Shown here piece by piece: positions 2,094-27,909 of a stretch of DNA of 29,251 nucleotides. The stretch is taken from the IMG/VR virus record IMGVR_UViG_3300010354_000425, positions 1 through 29,251 of that record. One strand, 5' to 3'. Position 1 is the first letter of the stretch. Every line of letters begins with the position of its first letter. Source of the stretch: a virus. The notes beneath the pieces are model-generated. The model searched no databases. It had not been told where the DNA came from and was given only the letters and a program-made list of their open reading frames with translations. Position numbers and translations under genes: made by a program.

Positions 2094-2100
2094 CTCCTTT
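2094..2100 (-). promoter_or_regulatory. Ribosome binding site of gp15
   Basis: AAAGGAG lies 10 nt before the gp15 ATG and shares bases with the gp14 stop codon (TAAAGGAG). It is one of only two strong Shine-Dalgarno sequences in the window and fixes the gp15 start. Confidence 0.75.
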
Positions 2101-10500: not shown

Positions 10501-12250
10501 AGACTCCTGGCGCAGATCCTGACTTTGGAGAAATTGATACTTGTCCAACACCATAGTTTGCAAATAATTTTGTATCTGCGTTAAAAGTTTGCCCTGTACC
10601 TACAGAACTATAAAGAGATTTTACATCAGAAATTTTATATTCTCTTGGAGTTGTAATTATTCGATTACTGTCTATACCATTAAAAATTAACTTTTCCCCA
10701 GATATAAAAGAACCATTAGTTCCATATGCAGTGACAATTCCTGTGGTTGTATTAAATCTAAGATGTCCAGTGGCACCACTAGATTTTCCTTCAATGTACG
10801 TTGGAACTGTTAAATTTATCGCTTGATTTAAAGTTAATTCTGTATAATTTTGAATATCATATAATGAAATATCCCATTCATTAATATCACCAACAACTGA
10901 GGAATATGAACCAGATTCTAGAGCATAATCATATACTCTAGCAAGTCCAATTTCTTTTCCAGAAGGTGATGTTGAGGTCACACCTATTCTAGAATCTCTC
11001 AAACTTATAACAGATGAAGTACTAAATCCAATTCTTGGAGCACCAACAACTCGGTTTAGACTTAATGTTGGTCCAGTGTAGTAGTTAACTGCTTGATTTT
11101 CTAAGGTTTTTGTTGTTCTAGTTTTTTCAAAATCCAAATATTGTACAGTTCTTGAATCTACTTCAAAACCACGAATAAATGCCTGTCCTGGAGAAATTTT
11201 ATAAGTGCCAAGATCATCACTAGGAACATTATTATTATAAGTTAGTTGACCTTTTGAAAATATTCCATTATTACCTTTACGATCATTTAAAGATTCTCTA
11301 GCAACAATTGAAAATGGTTTTACATAAAAATTGCCAGATTGGCTAAATGTTCTTCTTGCTAATTCTTCAGATAATTCATTATATTTTGATTTATCTTCAA
11401 TATGCTGTATGTTGCCCTGACGTAAAACTAATAATTCAACAAAATTTTCGTTCTTTTCAGATTCTAATGGTTTCTTAGTTAGAATTGCAGTTATTTTTAA
11501 TCTATCAGCTCCAGGAGCTGCATAATTGTTAAAACCTTTTGCATTATCATTTAGTGAAGGATCAAATCCAGAAGTAATAATTTCTTCAAAAATTTCTAGT
11601 CCAACTCTATATGTTGGAAATCTATCATGAGCATCAAGAATTACAGTTTGTGCATCTACCTTAACAAAAGTTCCTCTAATATAATAAATTCCTTCTGATA
11701 AAAATACTGCAGATCCAATAGATGATGCATTTACAGCGGCTGTTGTAGCAAATCCTTGTCCTGCTTGAAAGTTTACAACAGAAGTTGATACATTAGATTC
11801 TAAAGTTAATACTTCATTATCATCAAATACCTCTTTTCCTGAATTTCCAGTTGATATATAACTAACAAATAAAGTGTAATACCCTCTAGTAGAATACTCT
11901 GGTCCAACACTAGCAACAATTTTTGCCTTTACATTTGATGATTGTCCTCTAATATAAACATTAGTCAAATCTATGGCATAACTAGAAATTGGTATACCAA
12001 GATATTCTTGCTCAACTTCTATTGCAAATAATGTGTTATTATAATTGATTTGTCCAGGAATTACTACAGAACCCTCTTTAAATAAATGAGTTCCTAATTG
12101 CTCAATTTGATTTTGGAGAATCGATTGTAAAGATGTTAATTCTCTAGACTGAACTGGTAGTCCTGGTTTAAATAAAACTTTATAATATCCATTATTTGGA
12201 TCAAAGTCGTCAAAATATGGAGATACATTTAAATTAGTTTCTTGTGGCAT
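4598..12250 (-). CDS. 2550-aa DUF4815 virion structural protein with polyproline linker
   Basis: The N-terminus (SPYFDDFDPNNGYYKVLFKP, then GLPVQSRELTSLQSILQNQI and EQLGTHLFKEGSVVIPG) is typical of DUF4815 proteins of marine T4-like phages. Residues about 863-906 hold SGA/GE modules (FVIGEEIIGSTSGAA, IGETVKSDVSG). Residues about 1300-1420 are Thr/Ser-rich. Residues 1661-1717 are almost pure proline, with runs of 12 and 19. DPLAQSF follows at 1723 and opens a beta-rich half. This half contains two G-x-x-Y repeats (about 1943-2028) and an IDDE-like module (LLDNEIISYTG, about 2137-2215), and ends REFSIDSL-type as YRDYEFSIDSLPEFRYFSIK. It lies between gp8 and gp13, where T4 keeps genes 9-12 and wac. 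A role at the baseplate rim or in fibre attachment is inferred from position. ATG at 12250 has AGAGAG upstream and follows the gp8 stop by 9 nt. Confidence 0.87.
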   Translation of the reverse strand: MPQETNLNVSPYFDDFDPNNGYYKVLFKPGLPVQSRELTSLQSILQNQIEQLGTHLFKEGSVVIPGQINYNNTLFAIEVEQEYLGIPISSYAIDLTNVYIRGQSSNVKAKIVASVGPEYSTRGYYTLFVSYISTGNSGKEVFDDNEVLTLESNVSTSVVNFQAGQGFATTAAVNASSIGSAVFLSEGIYYIRGTFVKVDAQTVILDAHDRFPTYRVGLEIFEEIITSGFDPSLNDNAKGFNNYAAPGADRLKITAILTKKPLESEKNENFVELLVLRQGNIQHIEDKSKYNELSEELARRTFSQSGNFYVKPFSIVARESLNDRKGNNGIFSKGQLTYNNNVPSDDLGTYKISPGQAFIRGFEVDSRTVQYLDFEKTRTTKTLENQAVNYYTGPTLSLNRVVGAPRIGFSTSSVISLRDSRIGVTSTSPSGKEIGLARVYDYALESGSYSSVVGDINEWDISLYDIQNYTELTLNQAINLTVPTYIEGKSSGATGHLRFNTTTGIVTAYGTNGSFISGEKLIFNGIDSNRIITTPREYKISDVKSLYSSVGTGQTFNADTKLFANYGVGQVSISPKSGSAPGVSTVTSASVDFRSVVQVGDLVKFSNSLLGNTNVKTYAKVSSITNASSIVIVGITTVPNINDGGLPTSSISPSDFEIIGASLKSSTDNTLYTPLPKKFISNVDLTKSTLSIKKEFNVIITANATNTIQADTNETFLPFDEERYVLINSTGGFEELTEDKFRFSNGGKELRIFGLNISGPARLIATLTKINITNKVKSLNKTGSLIVNKSKLSSSGIGSTTLDDGLTYGSYGYGLRVQDKEICLLEPDVIKVYAVYESNDTNNPTLPSIGLFNLDGPTGKVDDFVIGEEIIGSTSGAAALYVEKVSTSNIALVYLNDLRFEIGETVKSDVSGITGTINDFDPGDENIISRFTLDSGQRETICDYSRLIRKPNGKEPKKKLRIIYESAKYSDSTEGDITTVASYNQFKYCDLPLIKNNDRITDTLDIRPRVRTFDPNSTSYSPFEFSSRSFSDGTNSAKNILASDESIILTYSHYLPRIDKLFLKIDGGFQLIKGVPSENPLPPISLEDSLEVASITLPPYICNAESVQVSLNSYKRYRMQDISLLEDRIKSLEYYTALSLLESKTESLFIPDENGLTRFKSGIYVDNFSNTKSQLKIGKITNSIDPNNLELRPSHFTTSIDLLLGSKSLLGIGTTANPTADSAFVTDIIGSNIRRTGQLVTLNYGEFLQFSQPFATRVENVTPYLITTYTGNIILFPSSDIWVDQVRLQPLRIEVDDYTQTRLQLEYGGYDQQTGLGPVRWGAWAATWTGSSTSSNSNTVVTSSSTQNTGSALVTTNQLQTTTVTTTTRTGTENRSGSQLRVSEQIDTRNEGDKVVSTSVIPFMRSRNIEFTGRKFRPYTRLYGFFDGENVNPFIVPKLVEIRMISGSFTVGQLVTGTMTTGSTTVTTGSTPSIRFRVANSNHKYGPITDPTDIFVKSPYDENYTIPANYSSSSILLNVDTRSLAENSQSLYSGFIRTGMRLRSSSAEAEVVDVRLFTDSVGTAIGTFFIPDPNLPSNPTFEVGTKVFRLTSNISNSLIGGLTSSSGEEPYFASGTINNMQETIRSTRKPRFDVVATSESRAAVDVQSTTVVTNSTTQSIQPLPPPPPPPPPPPPSPPPPTPSFPGIRTPTPPPPPPPPPPPPPPPPPPPVPSPPPPRRGGKDPLAQSFSITDDGGAFITSIEVFFRTKDPLLPVTVQLRPMEKGIPSEQIYPFGEAVVESADIIESSDASQPTKITFPSPVYLHSNTEHAVVLLSNSNEYTVWISRMGETDISTLLQPESRQVIVSAQPYLGSLFKSQNGSNWTPSQYEDLKFNLYTAVFTEDTGTISFYNPELNVGNNQIATLVKDPLEFDAKKIIITTNNIIDTSSLVLGNTIIQQNTDARGDYVGVGGSASGSLTIVNAGIGYTPSNGSSFTFNNVTLNTFSGTGKNATADITIGPSNGVNGVALAATIRSGGYGYQVGDVLTVTSIGNDALGRNLKLSLSNVVGANQLILDNVQGDFEINASKPLQYISPSTGITTILNSSGSNSVINDFELASLSEDGLHIKVNHKNHGMHSLTNVVKISRVKGDTKPTTLTAEYNNADTNPISIANTSGFEIFENVSVGSTNPGYALLDNEIISYTGVSNGQLTGITRSIDGSGSYSYPSRTSVQKYENNGISLRRINTTHYLQDALVTRPITLDSYYIRINTSENGVDRNSGAGFPKLYINSSKSTGGDAIQATQNIQYEAVNPIVQTMALPGTSIKASLKGITGTSVDGNEISFAETEATPINLDSDTYLPEPRIVASRVNELAQTTNFPANKSMELSFTLSTSNSKLSPVIDLDRVGMVLITNRVDSPISDYVNDPRVASLNEDPTSFIYANQPIELENAATSIKVLFSGYVNTYNDIRVFYSIDNSPNIDPIYYPFPGYDNLDINGNIIDISNNNGRPDKNVPPTDVLSSDSTKLVYRDYEFSIDSLPEFRYFSIKIIGTSTNQAYPPRIKDLRVIALA
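7100..7270 (-). repeat. Polyproline-coding low-complexity tract (12 + 19 consecutive Pro codons)
   Basis: Within the 2550-aa gene, codons 1664-1675 (7226-7261) and 1692-1710 (7121-7177) are unbroken CCN runs, joined and flanked by shorter Pro/Ser/Thr stretches. The tract is an island of GC-rich sequence in an AT-rich genome, with long G-rich triplet arrays on the plus strand. Codons are mixed (CCA, CCT, CCG), which argues for selection on the protein and not simple triplet expansion. Confidence 0.95.
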
Positions 12251-12259
12251 GACTCTCTA

Positions 12260-13843
12260 TCAGAATTGCAAAATAACTTTGATATCTTCTCTTTGATTTA
12301 CTGACCTAGTAATAGATGGTCTATTATCAACATATAACACGGTTCCAGAATATTTTTGTACCTCTGGATTTGCTACACCCTTAATAAATGTTTGACCTAG
12401 GTAGTATGTCTTATTATTTATGACAGTACTAATACCAGGTGTATTATCGGATCCAAATCCATCATCAATATATAAATCTTTAGATCCACCAACTATTCTT
12501 AAAGTTCCACCAGCAGATGGAGTTGCTGAGAATTTATTTAATTTGTATCCATAAATTGGATTAGTTTTTTGTGTGCCATCAGTATTAAATCCTACTAAAG
12601 ATCTATCTTGCCAGTATTTTAAGATACCTGTTTGGGCATCATAAGAAACTACTCTACCAACAGCAGTAATCCCTGCACCAACTGTTTGCCTTATAAATGC
12701 ATTTTGTTCAAAAAAAGTAGATTTGTAATCATCTACGTTTGGAGATAAACCTTTTAATTTTAATGCATATACTGAGCTTACTCTATCTTCTGATATGATC
12801 GTTGATGATTCATATGCCTGAGGATTTTCAATGATACCAATTCTAGATATTGAAGTTCCAGTAACAAAGTCTGGATTTTGATCATTGTTTTCTATTCTAG
12901 AATATATTAAAACATTAGTGGATCCAAGTTCTTTATATACATCATACCCATGACCACCAGGAGGGGGTATAATAACATCAAATACTGGAGAAAGAGATCC
13001 AGTTGGAACATTACCACCAACTAAATCTATACTTGCATAAGTATAGTTACTACCACCATTTGAAATAGTTACAGACTCTACTTTTGAGTCGTTATTGATA
13101 ACTATAGTACATTCAGCACCTTCACCATCACCTTTAATAGGGACTCTTGTATATGTTGTATTTGGTGGTCCAACCAAATACCCTCTATTTGTTATAATTA
13201 CTGTTTTTAATTGTCCACTAGTTTCAGCATTATTTCTGATAGTAACATAATCGTTATTTGTTTCCCAATCAACTGGTAATGGAATAAAATTTAAAGAATC
13301 AAATTTAATAACGTCACTTGGACTAATAGTGTAAAGATATTTCCATACGTATCCATCTCCACTAGTTCCTGCAGATCTTGGTTCTAAATCTGTAAATTTT
13401 GGTTCATCTAGGGATGGTTTTCCATTAGGATTTTCTGGATCAATCCCATTATTTAAACAAATATATACCCTAAACTCACTATTAATAACAAAATAGTTTG
13501 AAGAATATAAACTTGTTTTATTTGATGGTTTAGATAAATTATTTCTATTAATATCATGCCTATACATATCATAAATCGTAGCTGAAGCCCATTGCAATTT
13601 TCTAACAACAGGTCTTATATCATCGGCAGCAATTTTTTTCAAAGCAACCATAGTGTCCCAATAAAAATTGGTATCATCAAAACAATCTCTTGGTGCTGGC
13701 GGACTAGTGTTCCAACTATCTACTACTTCTGTAGAATTTGGTAGTCCAATAAAAGTATAATATGAATTAGATGGATCTCTAATTTTGTCAATAAAACTTT
13801 TTGCGTTTTTAACTCTCAATAAATCAGTTATAATTGCTGCCAT
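12260..13843 (-). CDS. 8: Baseplate wedge subunit gp8
   Basis: gp8 is a wedge component that binds gp7 and the baseplate periphery. The product is 527 aa, against 334 aa in T4. The N-terminal region carries segments I associate with cyanophage gp8: YTFIGLPNSTEVVDSWNTSP, then FYWDTMVALKKI, DIRPVVRKLQWASATIYDMY and SGDGYVWKYLYTISPSDVIK. The C-terminus has GTVLYVDNRPSITRS and QREDIKVILQF. Residues about 209-285 contain two copies of the G-x-x-Y repeat (NRGYLVGPP, NGGSNYTYA) that is also in gp14 and the giant proteins, which accounts for part of the extra length. A candidate late promoter lies just upstream; the gene is 34 nt after the 3906-aa gene. No clear SD precedes the ATG (AT-rich leader). 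Placement directly after the gp7-position gene supports the call. Confidence 0.87.
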   Translation of the reverse strand: MAAIITDLLRVKNAKSFIDKIRDPSNSYYTFIGLPNSTEVVDSWNTSPPAPRDCFDDTNFYWDTMVALKKIAADDIRPVVRKLQWASATIYDMYRHDINRNNLSKPSNKTSLYSSNYFVINSEFRVYICLNNGIDPENPNGKPSLDEPKFTDLEPRSAGTSGDGYVWKYLYTISPSDVIKFDSLNFIPLPVDWETNNDYVTIRNNAETSGQLKTVIITNRGYLVGPPNTTYTRVPIKGDGEGAECTIVINNDSKVESVTISNGGSNYTYASIDLVGGNVPTGSLSPVFDVIIPPPGGHGYDVYKELGSTNVLIYSRIENNDQNPDFVTGTSISRIGIIENPQAYESSTIISEDRVSSVYALKLKGLSPNVDDYKSTFFEQNAFIRQTVGAGITAVGRVVSYDAQTGILKYWQDRSLVGFNTDGTQKTNPIYGYKLNKFSATPSAGGTLRIVGGSKDLYIDDGFGSDNTPGISTVINNKTYYLGQTFIKGVANPEVQKYSGTVLYVDNRPSITRSVNQREDIKVILQF

Positions 13844-13871: not shown

Positions 13872-13879
13872 TATTTATT
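13872..13879 (-). promoter_or_regulatory. Probable late promoter (AATAAATA) upstream of gp8
   Basis: The minus strand reads AATAAATA, 7 of 8 matches to the T4 late element TATAAATA, overlapping the stop codon of the 3906-aa gene and 28 nt before the gp8 ATG. The spacing leaves an initiation point in the AT-rich gap, giving a leader of roughly 20 nt. It sits in one of the few gaps over 30 nt in the window, which supports it; background matches in AT-rich DNA limit certainty. Confidence 0.5.
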
Positions 13880-16800
13880 AACCAAGGTAACCAAGATATT
13901 TCAAAGAATTTTTTCTTCTTACAATTGGGTTAGATGATATTCCAGATTGACTTGTACCATTTTGTGCGGAAAAAGCAGCAGGAGAAACTCTAACTGGCAT
14001 ATTTATTTTACCCCAACTATACTTACCATAGAATGCAGTTGTTGCAAGTCCAACAATATTGCTTGCAGGACTATCAAGTATTTTAACAACAACTGTTGTT
14101 ACTGTTGTTGCAATACCAACAGTTGAAGCAGATCCAGTAATCCCTGGAGGTATTACTGCTTGTTTAGTAGACCAAGAAACACATTCAACTGTCATATCCA
14201 TAAATTGAGTAGATATCCCAAGTATTGAACCATTAGATCTTAATGATGTTTGTGGAGATGTTCCAAAATTAGACTCTAGTATATTAAAAAGATACCCAGT
14301 AGTAATTCCAGTTTGTATAATATTTAAACTGGATCTAATTTTAGAATTAAATGGAATGAATAGATCGAGTTTTAAACTTAAACATGTTGTAACTCCAGAA
14401 CAAGACGTTGTAGCAACACCAACTATGATCCCGTAATCACCCTCATAGTTTACGCGAATTACTTCCTCCATTCTTCTTTTTGGAGGTGCAATTAACACTG
14501 GAGGTGCTAACACTGAACTTACTGTAAACTTCATTGGTGATTGTAAAGCCCATTTTCTAGAAGTAGTTGCCAAACCTACATTATCAAAAGTATCAACATA
14601 TAAAATATCACCAACCTTATAATTTGCACCGCCATTTATAACTGATACTGAAGCAATATTATTATTCAAAATACTTATTTGAATATCTGCAGATGCTCCC
14701 CTACCAGACCCAGTTTGAGATTTTAATCTTGCATTATAGAAGGTGTTATTTGTGGCAGATAATGCTGGGAATCCACTTCCTTGCTGATTAATTGTAATTG
14801 AATCAATAGGACCATAGAAATAATTAGTTCCTGCAACACCCACAGATATTAGTGTCACAGTTCCACCAGCACCAATAGTAGCAGAGGCAGTTGCCTGTGT
14901 TCCATTTTGAAAAGGTTTTTGTATTGTTATATCTGGAGCAACTGTATAACCATATCCAGGATTTGTAATCAATATCGATGTAATTGATCCTCCAGATCCA
15001 ACAATTGCTTGTGCTGATGCTGGGCGCAAATCCTCTTGTCCAATAATTTGAATTATAGATCTTTCTTCAAGAGGTATTCCTTCAAAAGAATCATCAAACA
15101 ACGGTCTAATACTAGAGACAAATACATAAGTAGATCCAATACCAACAGATTCTATAATATTTGTAGTTGGATAAATTGATGGTTCATAATATACTCTATC
15201 TTTAGCAACAAATTCGTTATCGATAATTTTATCTACTGTTTGTTTAAACCAACTAATTGGCCTTGAATATAATTCATCGAGAGTTACTCCTTGTCCACCA
15301 TAGTTATTAGTAATAATTTTATCTGCAGATACAATATCAACTACCAATCTTCTGTCTTCAGTAGATGTAGAATCAATATCACTGTACAATTGAACATCAT
15401 CTCCAACTTTTACTGTTGGTAAAACATCAACAGTTTTAACGTCAATTGATTGTGTTCCTGTATACATTAAAAGTTTGGATTTATCTCCAGTAGTACTAAA
15501 TCCAGAAACATATCCTTTTGGTGCTTCGGTAAATCTAATTGTGCTACCACCAGTAAATTGATATCCTTGCCCTGGAGTTTGTAAAATATCATTTATGAAG
15601 ACGAGTAAATTTGATTGTAAATCAATTCCTGAGTTTGCTTTAGCAAAGAATGATATATTTTGTCCATTTGTAGTTAAAGGGAATAACCTTCTTCTTCCAT
15701 TAAAATACGGTGATATGTCATCTAGAACAATAAATTCTCCAACGTTCCAACCAGAAAATTTACTCTGATAAGTTTTATCAATTATAAGTTGAAATTCTCT
15801 AAATGATGTAATTCCTGTAATTGTAGGAATTCCAACAGTTCCTCCTATTGCAACAGTTAAAATTTGTTGAGATCCATACCCATACCCTAAATTAGTCAGT
15901 TCAAAATTAATAACACTAGATCCTTGTCCAACAACAATATCTACTCTTGCTCCAGTTCCAACTCCAGGAGTAGAAGAAGAACTATAAATCAATGGAATAT
16001 TTGAATAAGATTGAGGATTATCAAATATTACAATAGGAGGATTTGATGATGTAAATCCAAGTCCAGGATTTGTAATTGCTACCCCAGTAACATAACCATT
16101 AGATACTGATGCAATTCCAACATAAGTTATATTTGGATTTCCAGTGCTAGAAGTTTGAATTCCAACCTTAACAGTTTGTAATCCTGATCTATATCCAGAT
16201 CCAGAATTACCTATAGATATAGATGTTATGGAACCAGCAATAGAAACAATAGCTGTTCCTCCTGCTGCAACGAGAGGTTGATATCCAAATCCTTCCGTTG
16301 ACCCAACACTAACAATTATTCCTCCTCGTGGTGCATTATTAACATTAATATCATAAGTTAGATTTGGATCAACTATTGGACCACTAAATCCAACTTGAAG
16401 TTGTCCAACTCCAGGAATTAACCTATAATCTCCTGGAATATTCGTAAGAACATTACCAAGTCTTTGTGGTCCTTGGAATATATCATCTATTAATATAATT
16501 GTGTTATTTGAAATAATATTATCAATATCATTTCCTTGATATTTTAAAGTAAATGTAGTTGTAAGACCATTAAATTGATTTGATATATCATCAAAAATAT
16601 AATTATTATCATATGCTTTTACAAAACTAGTGGTTATTGATTGATTCAATGCGGATCTTAAAAATACTCTTCCACTAAATTTAGAACTTGTTGTTAATCC
16701 AGTATAATCAATATCATTTGCAGATGTTGCAGTTGTTCCAAATCCAACTGGAATTTTTCCCCATGGGGCTTCTGAGAAATGAATTTTATTATTCAAAATA

Positions 16801-19800
16801 TTAAAACTACCAACAAATTTTTTAATTAAAACATTTGTTGAATGAGTTGATGCTGAAGTACCCATCCAAGCACGCTTAACATTTATAATATTAGAATCTG
16901 AATCAACCGCAGAAACCAACATTAATTCATCATCAATTTGTATTAAATCTCCACTAAAGATAGATGTAACTCCAACTACAGATATATTTGTTGATCCTAT
17001 TCCAATACTACTTGATGTTGCAGTTGTATATGATGTTCCAACTATTGGTGACTGAATCATACCATTGACAGTCACTAGCATTCTATTAGTTGGTGATATT
17101 GATCTAAAAATATGAGTACTACCAATACCAACTCCAGTAATAGCGACACCAATTGGATTGAATAAAAGAGAATTTGTTGCTGAAGTAGCAACTCTTACTC
17201 TTTGATTATCTTGTTTAATTACTGTGAATTTTGATGGTAAAATACTTGTAGTTCCGATTCCAGGACCAAAATCAGTTGGTTCAATTTTTATAGCATTCAC
17301 AAAATTATTATTTGGTGGAACATATTCAATTTCTTCTCCACTGACAAAGAAATGATTGTTTAAATTAATGCTACCATCTACAAAAGATATAATATTTACA
17401 TTATCTGTAGCATCAAAAATTACTTCAAAAATACTACTATTATTAGATTTTAATTCAAAATCCCTTTTTACTCCATTAAACTCTTCACTAAAATCATCTA
17501 CTGTTAAAACTCTATTTCCTATAAATTCTTGATACTGTGCTAAAAATGGTAAATTAAATAATATCTCATTTGAGATTAAAGTATTGTCCACTTGAATACT
17601 TTTTTCTCTTGCAATATCAAAATCTTTTATTGAATTTAAATCAACAATTTCTGTTAAGTCTGAAATTGCTATTAAAACATTTAGATTTTGATCTGTCGAT
17701 ATACCACTCACTGATGGGTCATATGAATCAATTGTAAGTTCACTAAATTTTTTAAACCCAGCAGTGTGAGTTAAATTACTAACCAAAGGATTCCAAACTT
17801 GATATTCTATAGGTGACCTTACAGCATATGAAAAATACTGATAATAATCATTGTCATGAAGTCTTTGGAAAGATTGGTTCAGTTTACCAGTTTCTCTTAA
17901 CCATCCTTTTTTTGTAATACTGTTTGATTCTATTAAATATTTTCCAGTAATCCCATCAACTGAAGATATTAATCCTTTATTTTGTGAAGATGCTCCAATA
18001 ATTAAATCATCAACTTTAAATATTCTCTTTGATCTAATTTTTAAAAATTCATTTCTTCTATCATATGTTTGTACATATCCATAATTTCCATCCTGAGCAA
18101 CTATTAATTCACCATCTCTAAAACTATCTTTTTCTAATTCAACATCAAAAATTGGGAAGTATGTCTCTGGAGTAGCAGTGCCAAATGATTCAAAGGTATC
18201 AAAAATACCAGGTTCCTCTCCTGGATTTAAAAATTCTGACATATTGAATGTTATGGTTGGAGTATCTCCACCAACATCTGGATCTGCCGCAATAATTCTG
18301 AATAATCTATATTCATATGCCGCAGAATTATATCCTCTTCCACCAAAATTTGCATCAACATTTGTATTTTCTATAATAACTTTTTCGCCAACAAGAAATG
18401 GATAGTCTTGAAAAGATGCAAAAGTAACTGCAAATGAAACAGTAACATTTGCAGTTCCTGGATCAAATACAATGTTATCTATTCTTACTCCATTAGGGTT
18501 ATTAATTGGTATAATTTTTGGAGTAACGTTATATAAACCAGTGGTGTTCCTAATAATTTTTACTTCAGTATCACCAATCTCATATTCCAAAGAAACTTCA
18601 GTATTAACTCTACCAGTAAATCCATCAACAACAGCTAATTGAGGAACAACAAAATAATTTACACCAGGGTTAAGAATTTGTATTTTTTTAAATTTTGATA
18701 GCGGTTCAATCTTATATGTAAATGGAAAATTAGCAAGAGGTCTTAAAGTTTTATCTGATGGATAATCAAATCCAATATCAGTTAAAACTACACTATTAAC
18801 TTTTCCAATTGTTTTACTTCTTGGTAAAAACAGAGCAGCTGTTCCTAATCCACTGGATACCTGAGCAACATTAGGAAGTCTATTGTAATTTCTTCCTCCA
18901 GAATCAATAGTAACCTTTGCTACTGGACCAATCGCAGTTCTAGATTCTGTAGTATACTCGATGATTGCTTGATTTTTATTATATCCAGATTTTTCTGGTG
19001 TTAATTCTAAAGAATAACTAAATGTATTTGATCCAATTCCAGAAACTGGTGTAGTTTTATTAAATTTACTATCAATAATTGATATTTTATTTGAGTTTTT
19101 AATGTTAAATGAATCTCTTATAATTTCAAGTTTTGTTGCAGTAGCTCCAGCATATTTAATTGGGGTTAAATTGTAGTATAAAGTTGTGGGAACATAATTA
19201 TCAATAATAAATTCCAACTTTGCACCAGAAGTTCCAACTTCTCCTTCCTTTCTTACGTTAAATGCCCCTTTATTTTGTGTAGTAGTGTAAAATTCTTTTT
19301 GGAATAAATTATCAAAATAGATACTAAAATCAAAAGCAGGAAGAGAGTTTGAAGATAAAGTTGGATCTGAAAGATCAAAGATTATGGTACTATTTTTAGT
19401 TACAAACAATTCTGGATTAACTGGTGATAACGTTCCAGGTGATTGAGTTCCTATTTGTATTATTTCTACTCCCTGATTAGAAGAAATGTTGTCATAATAA
19501 TAGTTAGAAAGTAAAATAGTATTATCATCAGAAACTATAATATAGTACATTTTAGAATTTACTAATCCAGAAGAAGGACTTCCAGAATTATAAATTACTT
19601 TTTGACCATTTAAGAATCCATGATTTGGTATTGTTATCGAATTTCTTTGCAGGTTAATATTAAAATCACTAAATGATTTTGGATTTACCAACATTCTTCT
19701 GTTGATATCGTCATAAACTATTTTTAAACTAGTTGTAATTCCTGAAGTTACTTTAATATCAACTACATCTCCACTAGTTAATCCATGCTCTCTTTCAGTT

Positions 19801-22800
19801 ATGACTGTTGCTGATTTTTTATAGACATCGCCTCTAATAGTTAATTCAAAATTAGTTTTAACACTATGATTATCTCCAGTTCCGTAATCTGATATTCTAT
19901 ACAATTCTAAAACTTCAGATCCAATTCCGACAAATCCACCAGTGCTTCCAATACCAATTCTTTGAGTTGAAACCCCAATAAAATTATTATCATAAGCAGC
20001 AATGTATAGTGATTGTGAATTTAAAAGTGGTTTTGTGGTTGAACCATACGACACACTAACGCCAGTATATCCATGCCCAACATTGTATTGAATTCTATCG
20101 CCAGTCTTAAACCCATGTTCTGGTAGATAGAAAGTATTTGGTATTGTCTGTATTCCTTTCTTTTCAGTTATTCCTGGATTGCTTATGTATAATAATCCAG
20201 ATTTTTTTGAATTTCTAGTTAATGCCGCTCCAGAAGTAGCATAATATGTACTCATTAAGTTACCAAGTTCAACTTGAGCTCCCCAAACGTAAAATGTTGG
20301 AGATTCATTTAATGTTAGTCCTTGAGATCCAAAAGTACCTACTCTTATTCTATGAACACCAGCACCAGTTAATGCGGTAAGACTATATCTCCTCCATTCT
20401 TTAGTTAATGTAACTAGTTGTGAATAGTAAATAGTACCATCATCTAAAATAAAATATATTTTTTCATTTCCGATAGATCCTTTTAAGAATATAGAAAATG
20501 TATTATAATCTGAAGAAAGAGATACAGTTTCATATTTAATACCAAAAGCATCACTAGATCCAGTAGTTGACCCAAAAGAAACTCTAGCAGCATTATTTGA
20601 CCCATCTGGAGAAGATTCTGCAAAATATTCTATAAATCCTGTGCCAATTCCAGAAGTATAATAATCCCAAGCGGTTGGAACTAAATTTGGGGGAACTGGA
20701 TTTGAATATAATATTAAATTTTCCGATGGAATAATAGCAGTTTCTCTAGGATCAAAATGAATTTCTTTATTTAACCTATATTCAGTTGATGTTGTAAATC
20801 CACTATTGAATGTGAATTTTCTAGACAACTCTTTTAAATCATCTCCAGCAGAGTGAGCAATACCTGGAGTACTGTCAAAAGATCTATATACTCTTATTCT
20901 TGCATCTTTTTGAGATACGTTTAAAATTTTAACTTTTTCTGTTCCTATCTTGTAAACATCATTTGGTGATAAAATGGGAAATCCTAAATTTCCAGAAACA
21001 TTAAAATAAGTTATAATGCCTGTTTGGGATGTATTACCAATTCCAGTAGATAAAGTTAATGTATTTGTTGATACTCCAATGACATATGACGAAGCAAATT
21101 CTGTAGAAAGAATATTAAGATTCTGAACTGAAACTGTATCGCCATTAATAAATGAGTGCGAAGTACTTCCAAAACCAACATATTTGCCAGTTTCTCCGAA
21201 TGGGGTAAATTCAACATCAGATAGTTTACTAAAAGAATATGATATATTGTTTATTTCTCTTCCTTTAATTTGAGAAATTCTAGCATAAGCACCAGATCCA
21301 CCAGTTCCTTTACTATTAAAAAATATGTTATCTAGAACAGAATAATTATCTCCAGGAGAAATAATTTGTAATTCATTTAGTTGTCCAGAACTAATATTAT
21401 TAACTTCAGTAAATCCTTTTGTAAAAGTATCGGGTCTTGGAAATCCTTGGTAAATTGTATTATCTAATAGCAAACCCAGAGGAGAAGTATAACGAATCCA
21501 TCCAGATTTGTTTAGATTTACAAAATTTAAACTAGAGTATTGATTGAAATTATAATCTATAACTTTTGATTTAAAGGTATTTCCTATAATGTAAGGGAAT
21601 ACTGGTTTTAAATATCCATTAAAAGGTCCAGAGGCACTCTTTACATTATTTACTGTGGTAAAATATGCATAAACTCCATTTGGAAATTCTGGGGTTTTAC
21701 AGTACCTACCATTATTATAATCTAAATCACCATTATTGGTAAATTCATAATCCTCAACAAAATATCCAGGAGGAAATGATGCTGTAGATGGTCTATAACC
21801 CTTTAATTTTAATTCATATCCACTATTCAACCTTACAATAGCACCACCCTCTTTGTCAGCATAACCGTATGGTCCATAGATTGGGTTTCCATCATATGCC
21901 CATCCTATAATTGGAGAGTGGTATTTTGTAACAATATTATCATTTTCAATGTCTGCTCTATAGATTGTATTTCCAGATAAATCTAAAGAAGTTGCAAGAA
22001 GTTTCCTTCTTAATTCTCTTGCAGCATATGCATGAGTAAATTGTAATCCTTTTTCTGATTCTAATGGAGTTGTAATAATACCATCATCAGAATTTAATTG
22101 ATCAGATTGAAATATTCTTTCAACAAGATTAATCGTCCAAGATTTAATTTTACATTCAAATTTAGCATTGCTTCCAGTTGAAATGACATTAACTACTGTA
22201 TCAACTTGTTTATATCCAAATCCACTCTCTATTATTTTTACATCGACAATTTTATTATTTTCAATTTGAGGAACTAAAATGCATCCAGATCCAGATCCTA
22301 TAACTTGCAGTAAAGGTGGTGAATTGTAGTCTGATCCAGGGTTATTAACAATAGCACCAATTACTCTACCTTGCGATGATACAATTACACTAATTTGTGC
22401 ATTTTTACCATTTAATAATTCTATATTTGGTTGCCTATTGTAGTTTACAATATTGGCATCACCATAATTATCACCTTTTGATTTTAATGATACTGATGTT
22501 ATTTCTCCAGTAAAAACTGGTCTAACTTTAACTGTAAAGTCTTGTCCAGTAAAAGTTGTTACTCCAATTGGAGATTCAACTTTTATATTAATTGGTTGAT
22601 ATTTTATTGAATGTTGTCCAAATCCACCATTAGAAAAGTCTACAAATCTTCTATTGACGTAATTATAATCATTAGTAACAGTGCTGCCAATTCCCACTGA
22701 TTCAATTGGAGCAACTCTAAATCTATTTTTATCAACTACGTTTACATAACATTCTGTTGTTGTAGATAAACCAGATGGTAATCCGCCATCAGTGGAAAAT

Positions 22801-25598
22801 ATTATAACTTCTTTATCGGAATAACCATGATTATTGATATTAATAGTATTTTCAAAAGTATTTACTGAATAAGTATCAAAAAATAAAACTTTATTCGTAT
22901 AATTTGAACCTGGATTAGTTACTTCGATTGAAGAAATTACATTTTTTTTCTCAGCACAAGTAAATTTTTGTAATCCTTCACCATAAGATCCGAGAGTTAT
23001 TGTATTAATTCCAGAAATAGCATCATCAGCATTATTGTGAAGTTTAATTTTTGTTGGGGTGATTATTTTTACATAATAAATTGAATCATCTACTAAATTA
23101 CCTATTTTTGTTTGATTTTGTGAATTATAAATTACCTTTTCAAAATCTCTAAATTTATGATATGTTGTAAATCCTATTGTATTATCTGTTAAATTAACTT
23201 GATCATATAAACTTCCAGCATTAAATGATATTGAATATGTTATTTTTGATAAATTTGCTTTTGCTTGAGCTCCAGTTCCATTTCCACCCGAAATAGTAAT
23301 TTTTGGTTCTTGGGTATAATCAAATCCTTTGTCTAATATATTAATTCTGGATAATTTTCCAACAACATTACAAATTCCCTCTGCACCTGTGCCATAAATT
23401 GTATTTCCTATTCCAATATTATCTGTTATGACCATTACTGGTGGATCAATTACATCATAATTCGCATCACCCACTGAAGAAACAACTATTTCCTCAATCG
23501 GACCATAATAAATTGAATCTGAGGATTTGTAATTTAATAATTCAACACCATTTAAAAATAGTCCTGTAGTTCCTGGTTTAGTAATTCTATTTTCAACAAT
23601 ATCATCATCAATACTAGGAGAAAATTTTCTAATTATATCTTGAGATTGTAATCTTCTATTTTGATATTTTAGCAAAGATAGTTTATTATTAAATACTGTG
23701 CCAAAAACATAAACAAATTGACCACTTCTAATATTAGCTCTACTTGTAGCTAATTTTACTGTACTTGAGTTTACTTTATAGATAAAATAAGGACCATCTG
23801 AAATGTTTAATCCAGAATTATTATTTCTAGAATAATATACTGCTTCTCCACTAATAAAAGAATTAGAACCAATATTTAATTCATATCCATCATATTGGCC
23901 CGTAAATAATACTGAAAGATCTTCAACTATAATTGGAGTATTATAATAATTTGGAAGCGAAGATGAAACTACATAAGTATCTTTCCCATCAGCGTATACA
24001 TTCTGAACATCAGCAGAAATAATATTAATTTCTGGTTGATTATTGCTATTTGTTTTTGATATTCCTTTTCTTATTGTATATTTTACATTAGTAGTATTAA
24101 TTTGAGTAGTTAAATTTACATCAAATTCACGTTTGTTTGACACAGCAATTACAAAAATATTATACTGCCTTCCATCACTACCTTTAATAGTTCCAATATC
24201 TCCTAAAGTAAAAATATTTGGGTCTACTGTTTTAATTCTATATTGTGCGGCTCCATTTAGTTTTAGTGCAACTTGTACAATAGTTTCAATTTCATACTCT
24301 GGTGTTACATTAGTAATCCATGTGCTTAATACATTTTCTTGGGAATCTGCACCTAAAGAAACAATTTCAACTTGATCTTCAAGTTCATAATAATAAGAAT
24401 CTTCTCTATTAAATTCTAAGTCTCCAAGAACACCACTAATTTTTACTTTAATTTCATCACCATTTTCATCAATAGCATATGCATAATCTGGAGTTGTTAT
24501 TTCTTTGTTTAATTCAATTGCAATAGGTGCGGTTAACCCAAAAAATTGAGTACTACTTTTTCCAGTGTATTCAAAATTATACTCAACACCATTATCAAAT
24601 ACTATTAAATTACCACTGGTATTAAAACTTAAAGTTGAATCTACATCAAGGTAGGTTTGTCCTAAACCAACTGGATTTGTAATTCTTGTTTTTGGGTGAA
24701 CTGTAAAATTAAAAGTTTCTAATTCTGGATTATAATCTAAACTTAAACGAAAATATTCTTCATTATCTTTAAATACTTGCTCTACATTTGTAATTGAACC
24801 AGAAGCTTTAGATATTACATTAGTTTCATCTTGATATAGTGTTCTATTGATTAAATTTTCTGGATTTCCTTCTAATCTCCGTACAACAAGATCTCTTGTT
24901 ATTCTATAATCAGCATCAGATGGTTGAATTAAAAAATCTCTAGGTTTAATAATTGTTACTGGAGATCCCCATACCGATTTAAACAATAAATCAAACGAGG
25001 TGTCAGCACCTTTTGATGAATAAAAATCTTTTAATTTAGATACTAAAACCTTTTCATTAAGATCTTTATAAAATTCAATGTCTTCAAAACCAGGAGCATA
25101 TTGATACTTAAATTTTTTATATATTTCAGCTAAAAATAAAGCATGTAAATTATATACAGTTGTTCCAGATTCGTGAGTATTTGATAAAGTAGTAGTAAAC
25201 GTTAGAGGATTTGATTCTAAGGAAGTATAAGATGTAATTCCACTGAATCCACGTCTACAATTAATGAATGAAGTTTGATTTTTAGATTCATAAAGGATTA
25301 CCTCATCATTTATTTGTAAAAGACCATTATTTTGTGGAAAACCATTGGTATCATCTACAAAAATTTGTTGAGTATTGTAATCAACATCTGATGTTAATTC
25401 GGTATAATAAGTTAATTCTGAAATATTGTCTAATTTTGTATATTCATCAATATTGTTGAGTATATCTGAAGGACCACCAGGTACTTCTAAAGATTCATAG
25501 TAACTTTTAATAAAACTAACAAATTCTGGATAACCTTCCCGCACAAAATTTGGAAGTTGATCGCTGACTAGATTTTTAATATTAACTCTATTCTTCAT
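13878..25598 (-). CDS. 3906-aa giant baseplate/tail protein in the gp7 position
   Basis: This single ORF fills 40% of the window. Position between gp6 and gp8 corresponds to T4 gp7 (1032 aa), but I see only the marine-phage N-terminus to support that: IKNLVSDQLPNFVREGYPEF with VSFIKSYYESLE (residues 7-37). Next come an IDDE module (68-150), FEDIEFYKDLNEKVLVSKLK (171-190) and DTSFDLLFKSVWGSP. The rest is mosaic and beta-rich. It holds at least 15 G-x-x-Y repeats, several H-G-F/G-x-x-V repeats (about 580-2750), a YHYH domain (about 1225-1315: HSPIIGWAYDGNPIYGPYGY ... NGRYCKTPEFPNGVYAYFTT), a carbohydrate-binding-like beta-sandwich (about 1630-1795) and a second IDDE module (about 2853-2932). 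The C-terminus ends YSWGKINMPVRVSP ... NSLKYLGYLG. It starts 4 nt after the gp6 stop (TAAAAAAATG). Function as wedge component with surface-exposed domains is inferred. Confidence 0.85.
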   Translation of the reverse strand: MKNRVNIKNLVSDQLPNFVREGYPEFVSFIKSYYESLEVPGGPSDILNNIDEYTKLDNISELTYYTELTSDVDYNTQQIFVDDTNGFPQNNGLLQINDEVILYESKNQTSFINCRRGFSGITSYTSLESNPLTFTTTLSNTHESGTTVYNLHALFLAEIYKKFKYQYAPGFEDIEFYKDLNEKVLVSKLKDFYSSKGADTSFDLLFKSVWGSPVTIIKPRDFLIQPSDADYRITRDLVVRRLEGNPENLINRTLYQDETNVISKASGSITNVEQVFKDNEEYFRLSLDYNPELETFNFTVHPKTRITNPVGLGQTYLDVDSTLSFNTSGNLIVFDNGVEYNFEYTGKSSTQFFGLTAPIAIELNKEITTPDYAYAIDENGDEIKVKISGVLGDLEFNREDSYYYELEDQVEIVSLGADSQENVLSTWITNVTPEYEIETIVQVALKLNGAAQYRIKTVDPNIFTLGDIGTIKGSDGRQYNIFVIAVSNKREFDVNLTTQINTTNVKYTIRKGISKTNSNNQPEINIISADVQNVYADGKDTYVVSSSLPNYYNTPIIVEDLSVLFTGQYDGYELNIGSNSFISGEAVYYSRNNNSGLNISDGPYFIYKVNSSTVKLATSRANIRSGQFVYVFGTVFNNKLSLLKYQNRRLQSQDIIRKFSPSIDDDIVENRITKPGTTGLFLNGVELLNYKSSDSIYYGPIEEIVVSSVGDANYDVIDPPVMVITDNIGIGNTIYGTGAEGICNVVGKLSRINILDKGFDYTQEPKITISGGNGTGAQAKANLSKITYSISFNAGSLYDQVNLTDNTIGFTTYHKFRDFEKVIYNSQNQTKIGNLVDDSIYYVKIITPTKIKLHNNADDAISGINTITLGSYGEGLQKFTCAEKKNVISSIEVTNPGSNYTNKVLFFDTYSVNTFENTININNHGYSDKEVIIFSTDGGLPSGLSTTTECYVNVVDKNRFRVAPIESVGIGSTVTNDYNYVNRRFVDFSNGGFGQHSIKYQPINIKVESPIGVTTFTGQDFTVKVRPVFTGEITSVSLKSKGDNYGDANIVNYNRQPNIELLNGKNAQISVIVSSQGRVIGAIVNNPGSDYNSPPLLQVIGSGSGCILVPQIENNKIVDVKIIESGFGYKQVDTVVNVISTGSNAKFECKIKSWTINLVERIFQSDQLNSDDGIITTPLESEKGLQFTHAYAARELRRKLLATSLDLSGNTIYRADIENDNIVTKYHSPIIGWAYDGNPIYGPYGYADKEGGAIVRLNSGYELKLKGYRPSTASFPPGYFVEDYEFTNNGDLDYNNGRYCKTPEFPNGVYAYFTTVNNVKSASGPFNGYLKPVFPYIIGNTFKSKVIDYNFNQYSSLNFVNLNKSGWIRYTSPLGLLLDNTIYQGFPRPDTFTKGFTEVNNISSGQLNELQIISPGDNYSVLDNIFFNSKGTGGSGAYARISQIKGREINNISYSFSKLSDVEFTPFGETGKYVGFGSTSHSFINGDTVSVQNLNILSTEFASSYVIGVSTNTLTLSTGIGNTSQTGIITYFNVSGNLGFPILSPNDVYKIGTEKVKILNVSQKDARIRVYRSFDSTPGIAHSAGDDLKELSRKFTFNSGFTTSTEYRLNKEIHFDPRETAIIPSENLILYSNPVPPNLVPTAWDYYTSGIGTGFIEYFAESSPDGSNNAARVSFGSTTGSSDAFGIKYETVSLSSDYNTFSIFLKGSIGNEKIYFILDDGTIYYSQLVTLTKEWRRYSLTALTGAGVHRIRVGTFGSQGLTLNESPTFYVWGAQVELGNLMSTYYATSGAALTRNSKKSGLLYISNPGITEKKGIQTIPNTFYLPEHGFKTGDRIQYNVGHGYTGVSVSYGSTTKPLLNSQSLYIAAYDNNFIGVSTQRIGIGSTGGFVGIGSEVLELYRISDYGTGDNHSVKTNFELTIRGDVYKKSATVITEREHGLTSGDVVDIKVTSGITTSLKIVYDDINRRMLVNPKSFSDFNINLQRNSITIPNHGFLNGQKVIYNSGSPSSGLVNSKMYYIIVSDDNTILLSNYYYDNISSNQGVEIIQIGTQSPGTLSPVNPELFVTKNSTIIFDLSDPTLSSNSLPAFDFSIYFDNLFQKEFYTTTQNKGAFNVRKEGEVGTSGAKLEFIIDNYVPTTLYYNLTPIKYAGATATKLEIIRDSFNIKNSNKISIIDSKFNKTTPVSGIGSNTFSYSLELTPEKSGYNKNQAIIEYTTESRTAIGPVAKVTIDSGGRNYNRLPNVAQVSSGLGTAALFLPRSKTIGKVNSVVLTDIGFDYPSDKTLRPLANFPFTYKIEPLSKFKKIQILNPGVNYFVVPQLAVVDGFTGRVNTEVSLEYEIGDTEVKIIRNTTGLYNVTPKIIPINNPNGVRIDNIVFDPGTANVTVSFAVTFASFQDYPFLVGEKVIIENTNVDANFGGRGYNSAAYEYRLFRIIAADPDVGGDTPTITFNMSEFLNPGEEPGIFDTFESFGTATPETYFPIFDVELEKDSFRDGELIVAQDGNYGYVQTYDRRNEFLKIRSKRIFKVDDLIIGASSQNKGLISSVDGITGKYLIESNSITKKGWLRETGKLNQSFQRLHDNDYYQYFSYAVRSPIEYQVWNPLVSNLTHTAGFKKFSELTIDSYDPSVSGISTDQNLNVLIAISDLTEIVDLNSIKDFDIAREKSIQVDNTLISNEILFNLPFLAQYQEFIGNRVLTVDDFSEEFNGVKRDFELKSNNSSIFEVIFDATDNVNIISFVDGSINLNNHFFVSGEEIEYVPPNNNFVNAIKIEPTDFGPGIGTTSILPSKFTVIKQDNQRVRVATSATNSLLFNPIGVAITGVGIGSTHIFRSISPTNRMLVTVNGMIQSPIVGTSYTTATSSSIGIGSTNISVVGVTSIFSGDLIQIDDELMLVSAVDSDSNIINVKRAWMGTSASTHSTNVLIKKFVGSFNILNNKIHFSEAPWGKIPVGFGTTATSANDIDYTGLTTSSKFSGRVFLRSALNQSITTSFVKAYDNNYIFDDISNQFNGLTTTFTLKYQGNDIDNIISNNTIILIDDIFQGPQRLGNVLTNIPGDYRLIPGVGQLQVGFSGPIVDPNLTYDINVNNAPRGGIIVSVGSTEGFGYQPLVAAGGTAIVSIAGSITSISIGNSGSGYRSGLQTVKVGIQTSSTGNPNITYVGIASVSNGYVTGVAITNPGLGFTSSNPPIVIFDNPQSYSNIPLIYSSSSTPGVGTGARVDIVVGQGSSVINFELTNLGYGYGSQQILTVAIGGTVGIPTITGITSFREFQLIIDKTYQSKFSGWNVGEFIVLDDISPYFNGRRRLFPLTTNGQNISFFAKANSGIDLQSNLLVFINDILQTPGQGYQFTGGSTIRFTEAPKGYVSGFSTTGDKSKLLMYTGTQSIDVKTVDVLPTVKVGDDVQLYSDIDSTSTEDRRLVVDIVSADKIITNNYGGQGVTLDELYSRPISWFKQTVDKIIDNEFVAKDRVYYEPSIYPTTNIIESVGIGSTYVFVSSIRPLFDDSFEGIPLEERSIIQIIGQEDLRPASAQAIVGSGGSITSILITNPGYGYTVAPDITIQKPFQNGTQATASATIGAGGTVTLISVGVAGTNYFYGPIDSITINQQGSGFPALSATNNTFYNARLKSQTGSGRGASADIQISILNNNIASVSVINGGANYKVGDILYVDTFDNVGLATTSRKWALQSPMKFTVSSVLAPPVLIAPPKRRMEEVIRVNYEGDYGIIVGVATTSCSGVTTCLSLKLDLFIPFNSKIRSSLNIIQTGITTGYLFNILESNFGTSPQTSLRSNGSILGISTQFMDMTVECVSWSTKQAVIPPGITGSASTVGIATTVTTVVVKILDSPASNIVGLATTAFYGKYSWGKINMPVRVSPAAFSAQNGTSQSGISSNPIVRRKNSLKYLGYLG

Positions 25599-25602
25599 TT
25601 TT

Positions 25603-27507
25603 TTACAGTCTTACGTAATCTTCGGTAAAGTAACTAGATGATATTATGTATTGGGATCCAGAAATGTCAATTCCAGATGATATTACATCATTAATCATAT
25701 TTACACTAGATTTTGTAGTGTCCAATTGTAAATATAAATCTTGTTTACCAATAATATCATTTGATTTTGGTATTACTGAAAATTCAATAATTTCATCTCC
25801 AAAAGATTTTTTAGAAGTAGCCAAAATATTCAAAGCATTTATTTTAATTTCACCTTTTTTATAATCAATTGATCCAACATTTCTTCTAACAATAACAGGT
25901 TGATTTGATGCGTCCAATTTAAAAAGAAATACTGATCCAAATCCTTCATTATTAGGTAAATCCGAGAGATAAACAGTTCCAGTAATTCCCTCTACAGAAA
26001 ATCCACTTGTTTTAAAATTGTAACCATTAAAATCTTTTATGTAAAATTCATTTCCAAAACAAATTTCATATTCAGTATACTGTTTTAATCTAACTTTTAA
26101 ATCTCTTCTTATTTGTATTGATGTAATATTTGATGTTATTGCTACTGATGAATCATCAATTAATTTTAAGAATTTACTATACTTAAATCTAGAACCATAT
26201 CTATTTAACTCATCAGATTTGGCAAATTTTTCAAGAGTTTGATTTACCTGATTTTTTAAGAACACTGATGTTCCCTGATTACTGTTAAAATAAACTTTTG
26301 AATCATATTCAATATACAAATATTTTAAATCAATAAATTCTGGTATTATTCCAGCAACAGCATATTTTCTCAGGGTTAATTTTAAATTATCTTTAATAGC
26401 ATTTGGTAAGTATGATCCATTTTTTGGTTTCACCGTAATATAAACCTTACCATATTTTGGTGGATCTAACTCTTCACCACCAAAAACAGATACAGATTCT
26501 GTCTCTGGGTAAATTACTGGTATAAGAGATTCATAATCAGATGCAGTAACTGCTCTATTTTGTGAGGCATACACCCTTGGTGCTAATTTTTTAATAGAAG
26601 CAATCGATTCTATATCTGCACCATATCCAGAAGCTTCAATTGTAGTTATCAATGGTTCATCAACTACAATAGGACTACCATTATTATCTACTATTCTACC
26701 AGCAAAAGAAAGTGCATTAATTCCATTAGCATTTGATCCATTAGTTGATACGTAATTTACGATAATAAAGTTATCATTTTTTAATTTACTTCCAAATGTA
26801 TTATCACCAAATATTAATTCGTATCTTTGATCTTCAATTTCATTTAAAAAGAATACATCATCTGTAGGTTTAACATTGGTTAGATTATCTGCAAACTTGT
26901 AAACCCTAGTAATATTACTATTTTTATTTTCCCTAACAACAACTCTAATTAAACTCGTATCAATATTTTGATTATTTAAAATATATCTTTGATTCTTATT
27001 TAAACTATCTACTGTAAAATTTTCTTCAATGAATGATCCTTCATATACATCTATATTATTGAAGTAAGCAATACCATTAGAAACTGGAACAGTTATATCA
27101 TCTGGAATTGAATAGATGTAATTTAGATTTGAATATGATATATTTGATGTTGCAACTATTCCTTTTTTTAAAGTAACCGAAACTGGATTTTTAATAAATT
27201 CTGATAAGTTTAAGAAAAATGCAATTTTTGCTCTAGATGCTCTTGCAGATCTTGGAAGATAACCCAAATTTCTGGCAAGAGATACTACATTTTCTCTTAA
27301 TGTAGCACCATCTAAAAAAACCTCATTGGTCAGCATATTTGCATTATATGAGGTAATATATGTGTTATACGCTAATGTATCTAATAAAATAGTAAAATTT
27401 GATCCTTCAAAATCATAATCAGTAAATCTACCATCAGCTCTTAAAAAACTTTTGATAGACTCCCTTATATCATTAAAATCTAGTGCTGATACGTTAACTA
27501 AAGTCAT
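25603..27507 (-). CDS. 6: Baseplate wedge subunit gp6
   Basis: gp6 forms the iris-like dimer ring that holds neighbouring wedges together and pairs with gp7. The 634-aa product is close to T4 gp6 (660 aa). The N-terminus shows ALDFNDIRESIKSFLRADGR with FTDYDFEGSNFTILLDTLAY, then YITSYNANMLTNEVFLDGAT and LRENVVSLARNLGYLPRSAR, the family signature. A baseplate-J-like middle contains ELIFGDNTFGSKL and a later RAVTASDYESLIPVIYPETE with GKVYITVKPKNGSYLP. The last ~70 residues include KKGEIKINALNI and IIEFSVIPKSNDIIGKQD. The ATG directly follows the gp25 stop (TAAATG), so the two are translationally coupled. No large inserted repeats are seen, unlike its neighbours. Confidence 0.94.
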   Translation of the reverse strand: MTLVNVSALDFNDIRESIKSFLRADGRFTDYDFEGSNFTILLDTLAYNTYITSYNANMLTNEVFLDGATLRENVVSLARNLGYLPRSARASRAKIAFFLNLSEFIKNPVSVTLKKGIVATSNISYSNLNYIYSIPDDITVPVSNGIAYFNNIDVYEGSFIEENFTVDSLNKNQRYILNNQNIDTSLIRVVVRENKNSNITRVYKFADNLTNVKPTDDVFFLNEIEDQRYELIFGDNTFGSKLKNDNFIIVNYVSTNGSNANGINALSFAGRIVDNNGSPIVVDEPLITTIEASGYGADIESIASIKKLAPRVYASQNRAVTASDYESLIPVIYPETESVSVFGGEELDPPKYGKVYITVKPKNGSYLPNAIKDNLKLTLRKYAVAGIIPEFIDLKYLYIEYDSKVYFNSNQGTSVFLKNQVNQTLEKFAKSDELNRYGSRFKYSKFLKLIDDSSVAITSNITSIQIRRDLKVRLKQYTEYEICFGNEFYIKDFNGYNFKTSGFSVEGITGTVYLSDLPNNEGFGSVFLFKLDASNQPVIVRRNVGSIDYKKGEIKINALNILATSKKSFGDEIIEFSVIPKSNDIIGKQDLYLQLDTTKSSVNMINDVISSGIDISGSQYIISSSYFTEDYVRL

Positions 27508-27909
27508 TTATCTAGTTGGTAGTAATACGAATTCTAATTGTTGTGGTAGGGCATCAATTCCAACTATTAAATATACGACTTTGATATCCATTGCCCCTTC
27601 ATCATAATTTGGAGTAACAACGGTTTCAATCAATTCAACTCTTGGCTCATTAATTTTTATAACTTCAATTATCTCAGTTTCTAATCTTCTTGCAGTAAAA
27701 ATATCAATTGTCTCAAACAATAAAGTATTTAAAGAAGTTCCTATACTAGGTTCAAAAAACTTCTCTCCACGAATTGTTAATACTAAATTTTGAATTGATC
27801 GAGCGATAGCGTTTTCATTCTTTAAAATATTCAAGTCTTTCGTTAAAGGATTTGCCGTTAACGAAAGACTAATATCTCTAAATCCAACACTAATACGCTC
27901 TAGTGGCAT
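27508..27909 (-). CDS. 25: Baseplate wedge / sheath initiator gp25
   Basis: gp25 has a lysozyme-like fold without catalysis and nucleates the contractile sheath on the wedge. The 133-aa product matches T4 gp25 (132 aa) in length. RGEKFFEPSIGTSLNTLLFE (residues 47-66) and the invariant INEPRV with EPR at 88-90 are the family's marks; the ending VYLIVGIDALPQQLEFVLLP is also typical. It is the first gene after the perfect late promoter at 27932-27939 and is coupled to gp6. The start ATG at 27909 has only a weak upstream SD, consistent with a short, AT-rich late leader. Confidence 0.95.
   Translation of the reverse strand: MPLERISVGFRDISLSLTANPLTKDLNILKNENAIARSIQNLVLTIRGEKFFEPSIGTSLNTLLFETIDIFTARRLETEIIEVIKINEPRVELIETVVTPNYDEGAMDIKVVYLIVGIDALPQQLEFVLLPTR

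Follow-up and report, generated by a model that had tools for sequence, protein, structure and literature searches.

The window, a stretch of 29,251 nucleotides covering positions 1 to 29,251 of IMG/VR record IMGVR_UViG_3300010354_000425, comes from a cyanophage-type T4-like virus and contains a cluster of baseplate genes. Within it, a single uninterrupted open reading frame (ORF) of 3906 codons plus a stop occupies positions 13878-25598 on the minus strand (read from 25598 to 13878) and encodes a protein with a calculated mass of 427.9 kDa. The genes for gp25 and gp6 lie upstream of this ORF and the gene for gp8 lies downstream, in the order gp25, gp6, giant ORF, gp8. The giant ORF thus fills the gp7 slot between gp6 and gp8, and the uninterrupted reading frame described there by an initial annotation of this DNA is confirmed, on the minus strand.

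12260-13843, minus strand: gp8 baseplate wedge protein
13878-25598, minus strand: giant protein in the gp7 slot (3906 aa, PHROG 2885)
25603-27507, minus strand: gp6 baseplate wedge protein, presumed partner of the giant protein
27508-27909, minus strand: gp25-like baseplate wedge protein

Further downstream, beyond gp8, lie a gene for a VrlC-type protein (2550 aa, containing DUF4815) and then neck, sheath-stabiliser and small-terminase genes. Residues 1664-1717 of the VrlC-type protein (window 7100-7261) form a 54-residue segment of almost pure proline, with runs of 12 and 19 prolines. Within our sample of isolates, the closest relative of the window's gp6 was gp6 of Prochlorococcus phage P-TIM68 (55%). 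A megablast search of phage records with the first 8.1 kb of the plus-strand interval gave no match.

The length of the giant ORF is unusual beside T4 gp7 (1032 aa), as might be expected if two or more genes had been fused during assembly. However, complete and uninterrupted relatives of 4287-4390 aa, each with its C-terminal end located on the same contig, were found on eight other viral contigs, some of which are near-identical and so represent fewer than eight distinct viruses. Isolates encode proteins of similar length (S-B05, 4024 aa; S-SM2, 4156; P-TIM68, 4307; P-HM1, 4446), and that of S-SM1 reaches 6180 aa. Furthermore, all 45 environmental contigs that we read from the start codon stayed open to the end of the available stretch, most of them for 3572-3581 codons. 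The eight complete relatives demonstrate that the 3906-aa length is no assembly artefact. Fusion, which the initial annotation had named as a possible source of error, is excluded by these contigs and by the isolates of 4024-4446 aa, and we assign it a negligible probability.

The protein cannot be called unprecedented, as it belongs to a known, named family represented in about 470-490 phage records. PHROG 2885 ("baseplate wedge subunit") matched it with 2805.7 bits in four stretches that cover most of the family length. Its N-terminal 240 residues matched 466 phage records at 1e-5, nearly all from cyanophages and many annotated as "baseplate wedge initiator" or gp7. Among the family members examined, lengths ranged from 1937 to 6180 aa. 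The counterparts in S-SM2, S-B05, P-TIM68 and S-SSM7 occupy the same slot, are 3007-4307 aa long and are homologous to the window protein over most of the chain at ~27-41% identity; P-TIM68, S-B05 and S-SSM7 have an ORF between gp7 and gp8, whereas the window has none.

GenBank calls these cyanophage proteins gp7, whereas a published analysis states that these phages lack gp7 and have VrlC in its place (PMC7029224). Alignment of the window N-terminus with T4 gp7 by hhalign gave an E value of 3.7e-10 (window residues 185-288 to T4 residues 727-814), and a reversed T4 gp7 profile, used as a control, yielded nothing. Two short core-segment HMMs, both built without T4 sequences and compared with 3000 shuffles, matched T4 gp7 as well: core segment 1 at T4 residues 729-758 (37.0 bits versus 7.3 for the best shuffle), and core segment 2 at residues 866-891 (14.5 bits versus 6.0), a match that is statistically modest alone. 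In hhalign, segment 2 reached 43% probability against T4 (P 2.4e-4) with a profile to which compact relatives had been added only after a weak first comparison was seen (2.6% probability). The two segments are collinear with T4 gp7, in which segment 2 directly follows. The protein in the same slot of phiM12 (1007 aa) bridges the two ends of the comparison, with a match to T4 gp7 residues 640-758 (E 7e-6) and matches to the window protein at both cores. The alignment of the Marzo counterpart with T4 gp7 begins at residue 644.

AlphaFold models of window residues 1-480 and of a compact 896-aa relative were of low confidence (pLDDT 68 and 59; pTM 0.37 and 0.42), and with both models a Foldseek search of solved structures ranked T4-type gp7 chains first and second through local matches (TM about 0.1). 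Chain 9f4a_A0 was identified as gp7 from its length and its entry. Given such low model confidence and such local matches, this comparison supports gp7 homology but does not decide it. Searches of PDB sequences with phmmer returned no match for the whole giant protein and a single, chance match for its N-terminus, and we found no solved cyanomyovirus baseplate. We recognised no counterpart of T4 gp7 residues 1-640 in the giant protein. The Pfam domains Gp7_helical, Gp7_5th and Gp7_6th, present in T4 gp7, were likewise not found in it. Since these domain models fail to detect the core-bearing compact relatives too, we regard them as peculiar to the T4 branch. Together, the strong match of segment 1 and the modest but collinear match of segment 2 support homology between the giant protein and T4 gp7 at the level of sequence, and argue against the view that gp7 is absent.

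The segments divide the giant protein as follows.

25419-25586, minus strand: N-terminal helical segment, residues 5-60, conserved in the alignment and helical in the model
25119-25379, minus strand: module D, residues 74-160, inserted after the helical segment and ahead of core segment 1
24903-25061, minus strand: gp7 core segment 1, residues 180-232 (T4 gp7 729-758)
17853-24902, minus strand: spacer between the core segments, residues 233-2582 (107 residues in T4)
17733-17852, minus strand: gp7 core segment 2, residues 2583-2622 (T4 gp7 866-891)
13881-17732, minus strand: C-terminal tail, residues 2623-3906, with modules C, D and A

Residues 5-60 may be, as an analogy to T4 and XM1 suggests, the counterpart of the gp7 core-bundle helices. 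T4 gp7 (5IV5, 5HX2) shares the slot between gp6 and gp8 and the order of the two segments, and ranks as the nearest structural neighbour of the low-confidence models. Its core, however, is preceded by ~640 residues and its segments stand 107 residues apart, whereas in the window protein the core starts at the N-terminus, with 2350 residues between the segments and 1284 after them. The conserved core is therefore not confined to the N-terminal ~240 residues, to which the initial annotation had limited the assembly domain.

Spacer length is graded across relatives, from 107 residues in T4 through 266 in Marzo, 397 in Melnitz-3, 530 in HTVC008M and 810 in phiM12 to 1593 in S-PM2, 1645 in S-CREM2, 2194-2354 in cyanophages (2350 in the window) and 2721 in S-SM1. 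The compact relatives in Marzo (503 aa), Melnitz-3 (896 aa), phiM12 (1007 aa) and HTVC008M (1016 aa) carry both core segments in the same gp6-gp8 slot, but both their spacers (266-810 residues) and their tails (21-225 residues) are shorter than those of the window protein. The stretch after core segment 2 measures ~20 residues in phiM12 and S-CREM2, 538 in S-SSM7, and 1284-1797 in the window (1284) and most other cyanophages; in S-SSM7, the region equivalent to the window's C-terminus is largely a separate ORF. The S-SM1 protein (T4-GC969) follows gp6 and carries both core segments, like the window protein, but is larger, with 684 residues ahead of core segment 1, a spacer of 2721 and a tail of 2683. 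The simplest history, in which the direction of change is inferred, would be that a compact gp7 acquired modules both within a single loop and at the end of the chain. What is new here is a putative gp7 core split by a 2350-residue insertion, with a spacer graded across relatives.

Repeats and further domains are found along the chain. Self-BLASTP of the giant protein at 1e-3 showed no off-diagonal repeat, so HMMs were needed to detect them. Four degenerate module families were found, namely A (GxGY, seven copies), B (NHGF, six), C (three) and D (two). The seeds of the repeat HMMs were picked by eye; as an independent check, a model made from gp14 alone gave best copies in the giant protein that exceeded everything in 50 shuffles. 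Module A is also present in gp14 (three copies) and gp8, and module D in gp15 and VrlC (window 2099-3499 for gp14, 1094-2083 for gp15, 12260-13843 for gp8 and 4598-12250 for VrlC). Together, families A-D make up about one quarter of the chain (~950 residues). The remainder of the protein had been described in the initial annotation as a chain of repeated beta modules with two surface-recognition domains; the repeats detected bear this out only in part, and of the two domains one is clear while the other is lectin-like on weak evidence. These domains, and a site at which relatives differ, lie as follows.

21648-21929, minus strand: YHYH domain, residues 1224-1317 (Pfam 2e-21)
20190-20714, minus strand: possibly lectin-like domain, residues ~1629-1803, in the window's clade only
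16044-16070, minus strand: extra-block site, residues 3177-3185, where relatives carry an extra repeat block

The YHYH match covers only positions 89-183 of the profile, which is the C-terminal half of the model. YHYH is a predicted metal-dependent hydrolase with a zinc site and a triad of conserved histidines plus an aspartate (PMC7824862). Residues 1101-1340 of the giant protein hold just two histidines, H1189 and H1227, the former not conserved. We rejected a hydrolase role because most of the expected histidines, and with them the zinc site of PMC7824862, are missing. The domain at ~1629-1803 is present in the window's clade and absent from the isolates compared (S-SM2, S-B05, P-TIM68 and S-SSM7 lack it), and resembles baseplate and spike proteins of phages only weakly (E 0.015-0.04); it is possibly lectin-like. 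A relative of this domain occurs in a hypothetical protein of the T7-like uncultured phage AP013544 (L210:7185-9014), which suggests domain exchange between unrelated phages. At the third site, close relatives (L213, L214, L217 and L221) carry an extra short-repeat block of 380-490 residues between flanks that are 76-79% identical, and the window lacks the block; this pattern indicates a clean gain or loss of a module.

Homologues of the giant protein are found in virions. Published virion mass spectrometry recovered 91 unique peptides of S-CREM2 ORF122 (1937 aa), a coverage of 27%, and T4-GC969 is listed among the proteins detected by mass spectrometry in purified S-SM1 virions (Sullivan et al., PMC3037559). 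Both ORF122 and T4-GC969, the 6180-aa gp7-slot protein of S-SM1, carry the two gp7 core segments. The initial proposal of a wedge component in the gp7 slot is thus largely supported by slices that match T4 gp7 in hhalign and Foldseek and by homologues in purified virions, although not its ~240-residue limit.

We weighed this reading against three others. The modest match of segment 2 to T4, including the low probability first obtained, and the surface-type domains that the outer part does hold would also be expected if gp7 were the first ~340 residues only, residues 2583-2622 resembled T4 866-891 by chance, and the rest were a fused tail-fibre-like adhesin. Segment 2, however, occurs a single time per record in 491 phage records (492 places), stands at the very end of the S-CREM2 and phiM12 proteins, is present in relatives of only 460-503 aa, and agrees with T4 gp7 in order and adjacency, which makes a truncated gp7 unlikely. 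Cleavage of the chain after synthesis, whereby the wedge would keep a small gp7 and the other pieces become separate virion proteins, draws on the separate C-terminal ORF of S-SSM7, which means that the parts need not be one chain, and on the 27% peptide coverage in S-CREM2. We found no evidence of processing, and in every relative read the gene remains one open frame; we consider cleavage quite unlikely. Finally, VrlC could act in place of a missing gp7, with the giant protein as an accessory adhesin. The published statement of replacement (PMC7029224) and the conservation of VrlC beside gp8 speak for this reading. In family scans, however, VrlC gave no gp7 match, and it is the giant protein that fills the gp7 slot and has the gp7 core. 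We regard substitution by VrlC as very improbable.

We therefore favour the reading that the giant protein is the gp7 of a T4-like cyanophage, whose split core would build the wedge and whose insert and tail would form an outer, host-contacting part of the baseplate, and we place its probability at roughly 80%. In T4 and in type VI secretion, wedges contain a 2:1 heterotrimer, (gp6)2-gp7 (PMC6300606). In the XM1 baseplate, gp17 (242 aa), the gp7 orthologue, holds tail spikes through internal and C-terminal flexible regions (PMC10457771); XM1 gp17 is tiny, and we liken it to the window protein by mechanism only, as a single gp7 chain per wedge by which receptor-binding spikes are held. In the window protein, the N-terminal stretch up to residue 232 is inferred to meet residues 2583-2622, and the united core would pair with two gp6 chains to make one baseplate wedge, as T4 gp7 does. 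The 2350-residue insert and the 1284-residue tail, with their beta modules, YHYH domain and lectin-like domain, would project outward, and the projecting modules may form the outer baseplate, hold fibres and touch the host surface. Baseplates have six wedges. By analogy, the virion would hold six copies, positioned outward and in contact with the host, and may bear the large external structure envisaged in the initial annotation; their calculated mass of 2.57 MDa agrees with the earlier estimate of over 2.5 MDa, which shares the same presumed copy number. More tentatively, one loop of the gp7 core may have been an evolutionary docking site that, in cyanophages, took in most of an outer baseplate, such that a single chain replaced several separate outer baseplate proteins of T4, and module swaps inside it and at its end could retune host contact; we hold this to be possible, at somewhat less than even odds.

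T4-like cyanophages abound in the ocean (PMC3037559). Annotations of the very large gene in their baseplate cluster differ, with gp7, structural protein, large exoprotein and hypothetical all in use. A recognisable gp7 core split by some 2,200-2,700 residues offers one consistent annotation for it, and shows structural biologists which parts of the chain to examine for that core. It also points to a single loop and the C-terminus as sites of gain and loss of surface modules. The S-SM1 protein (L006:1322-19864), the largest gp7-slot protein found, is annotated merely as a virion structural protein. In S-SSM7 (L009:2562-21656), two ORFs of 3007 and 3001 aa are annotated as gp7 and flank a 340-aa ORF; the core segments are in the first only, and the second matches the C-terminal region of the window protein.
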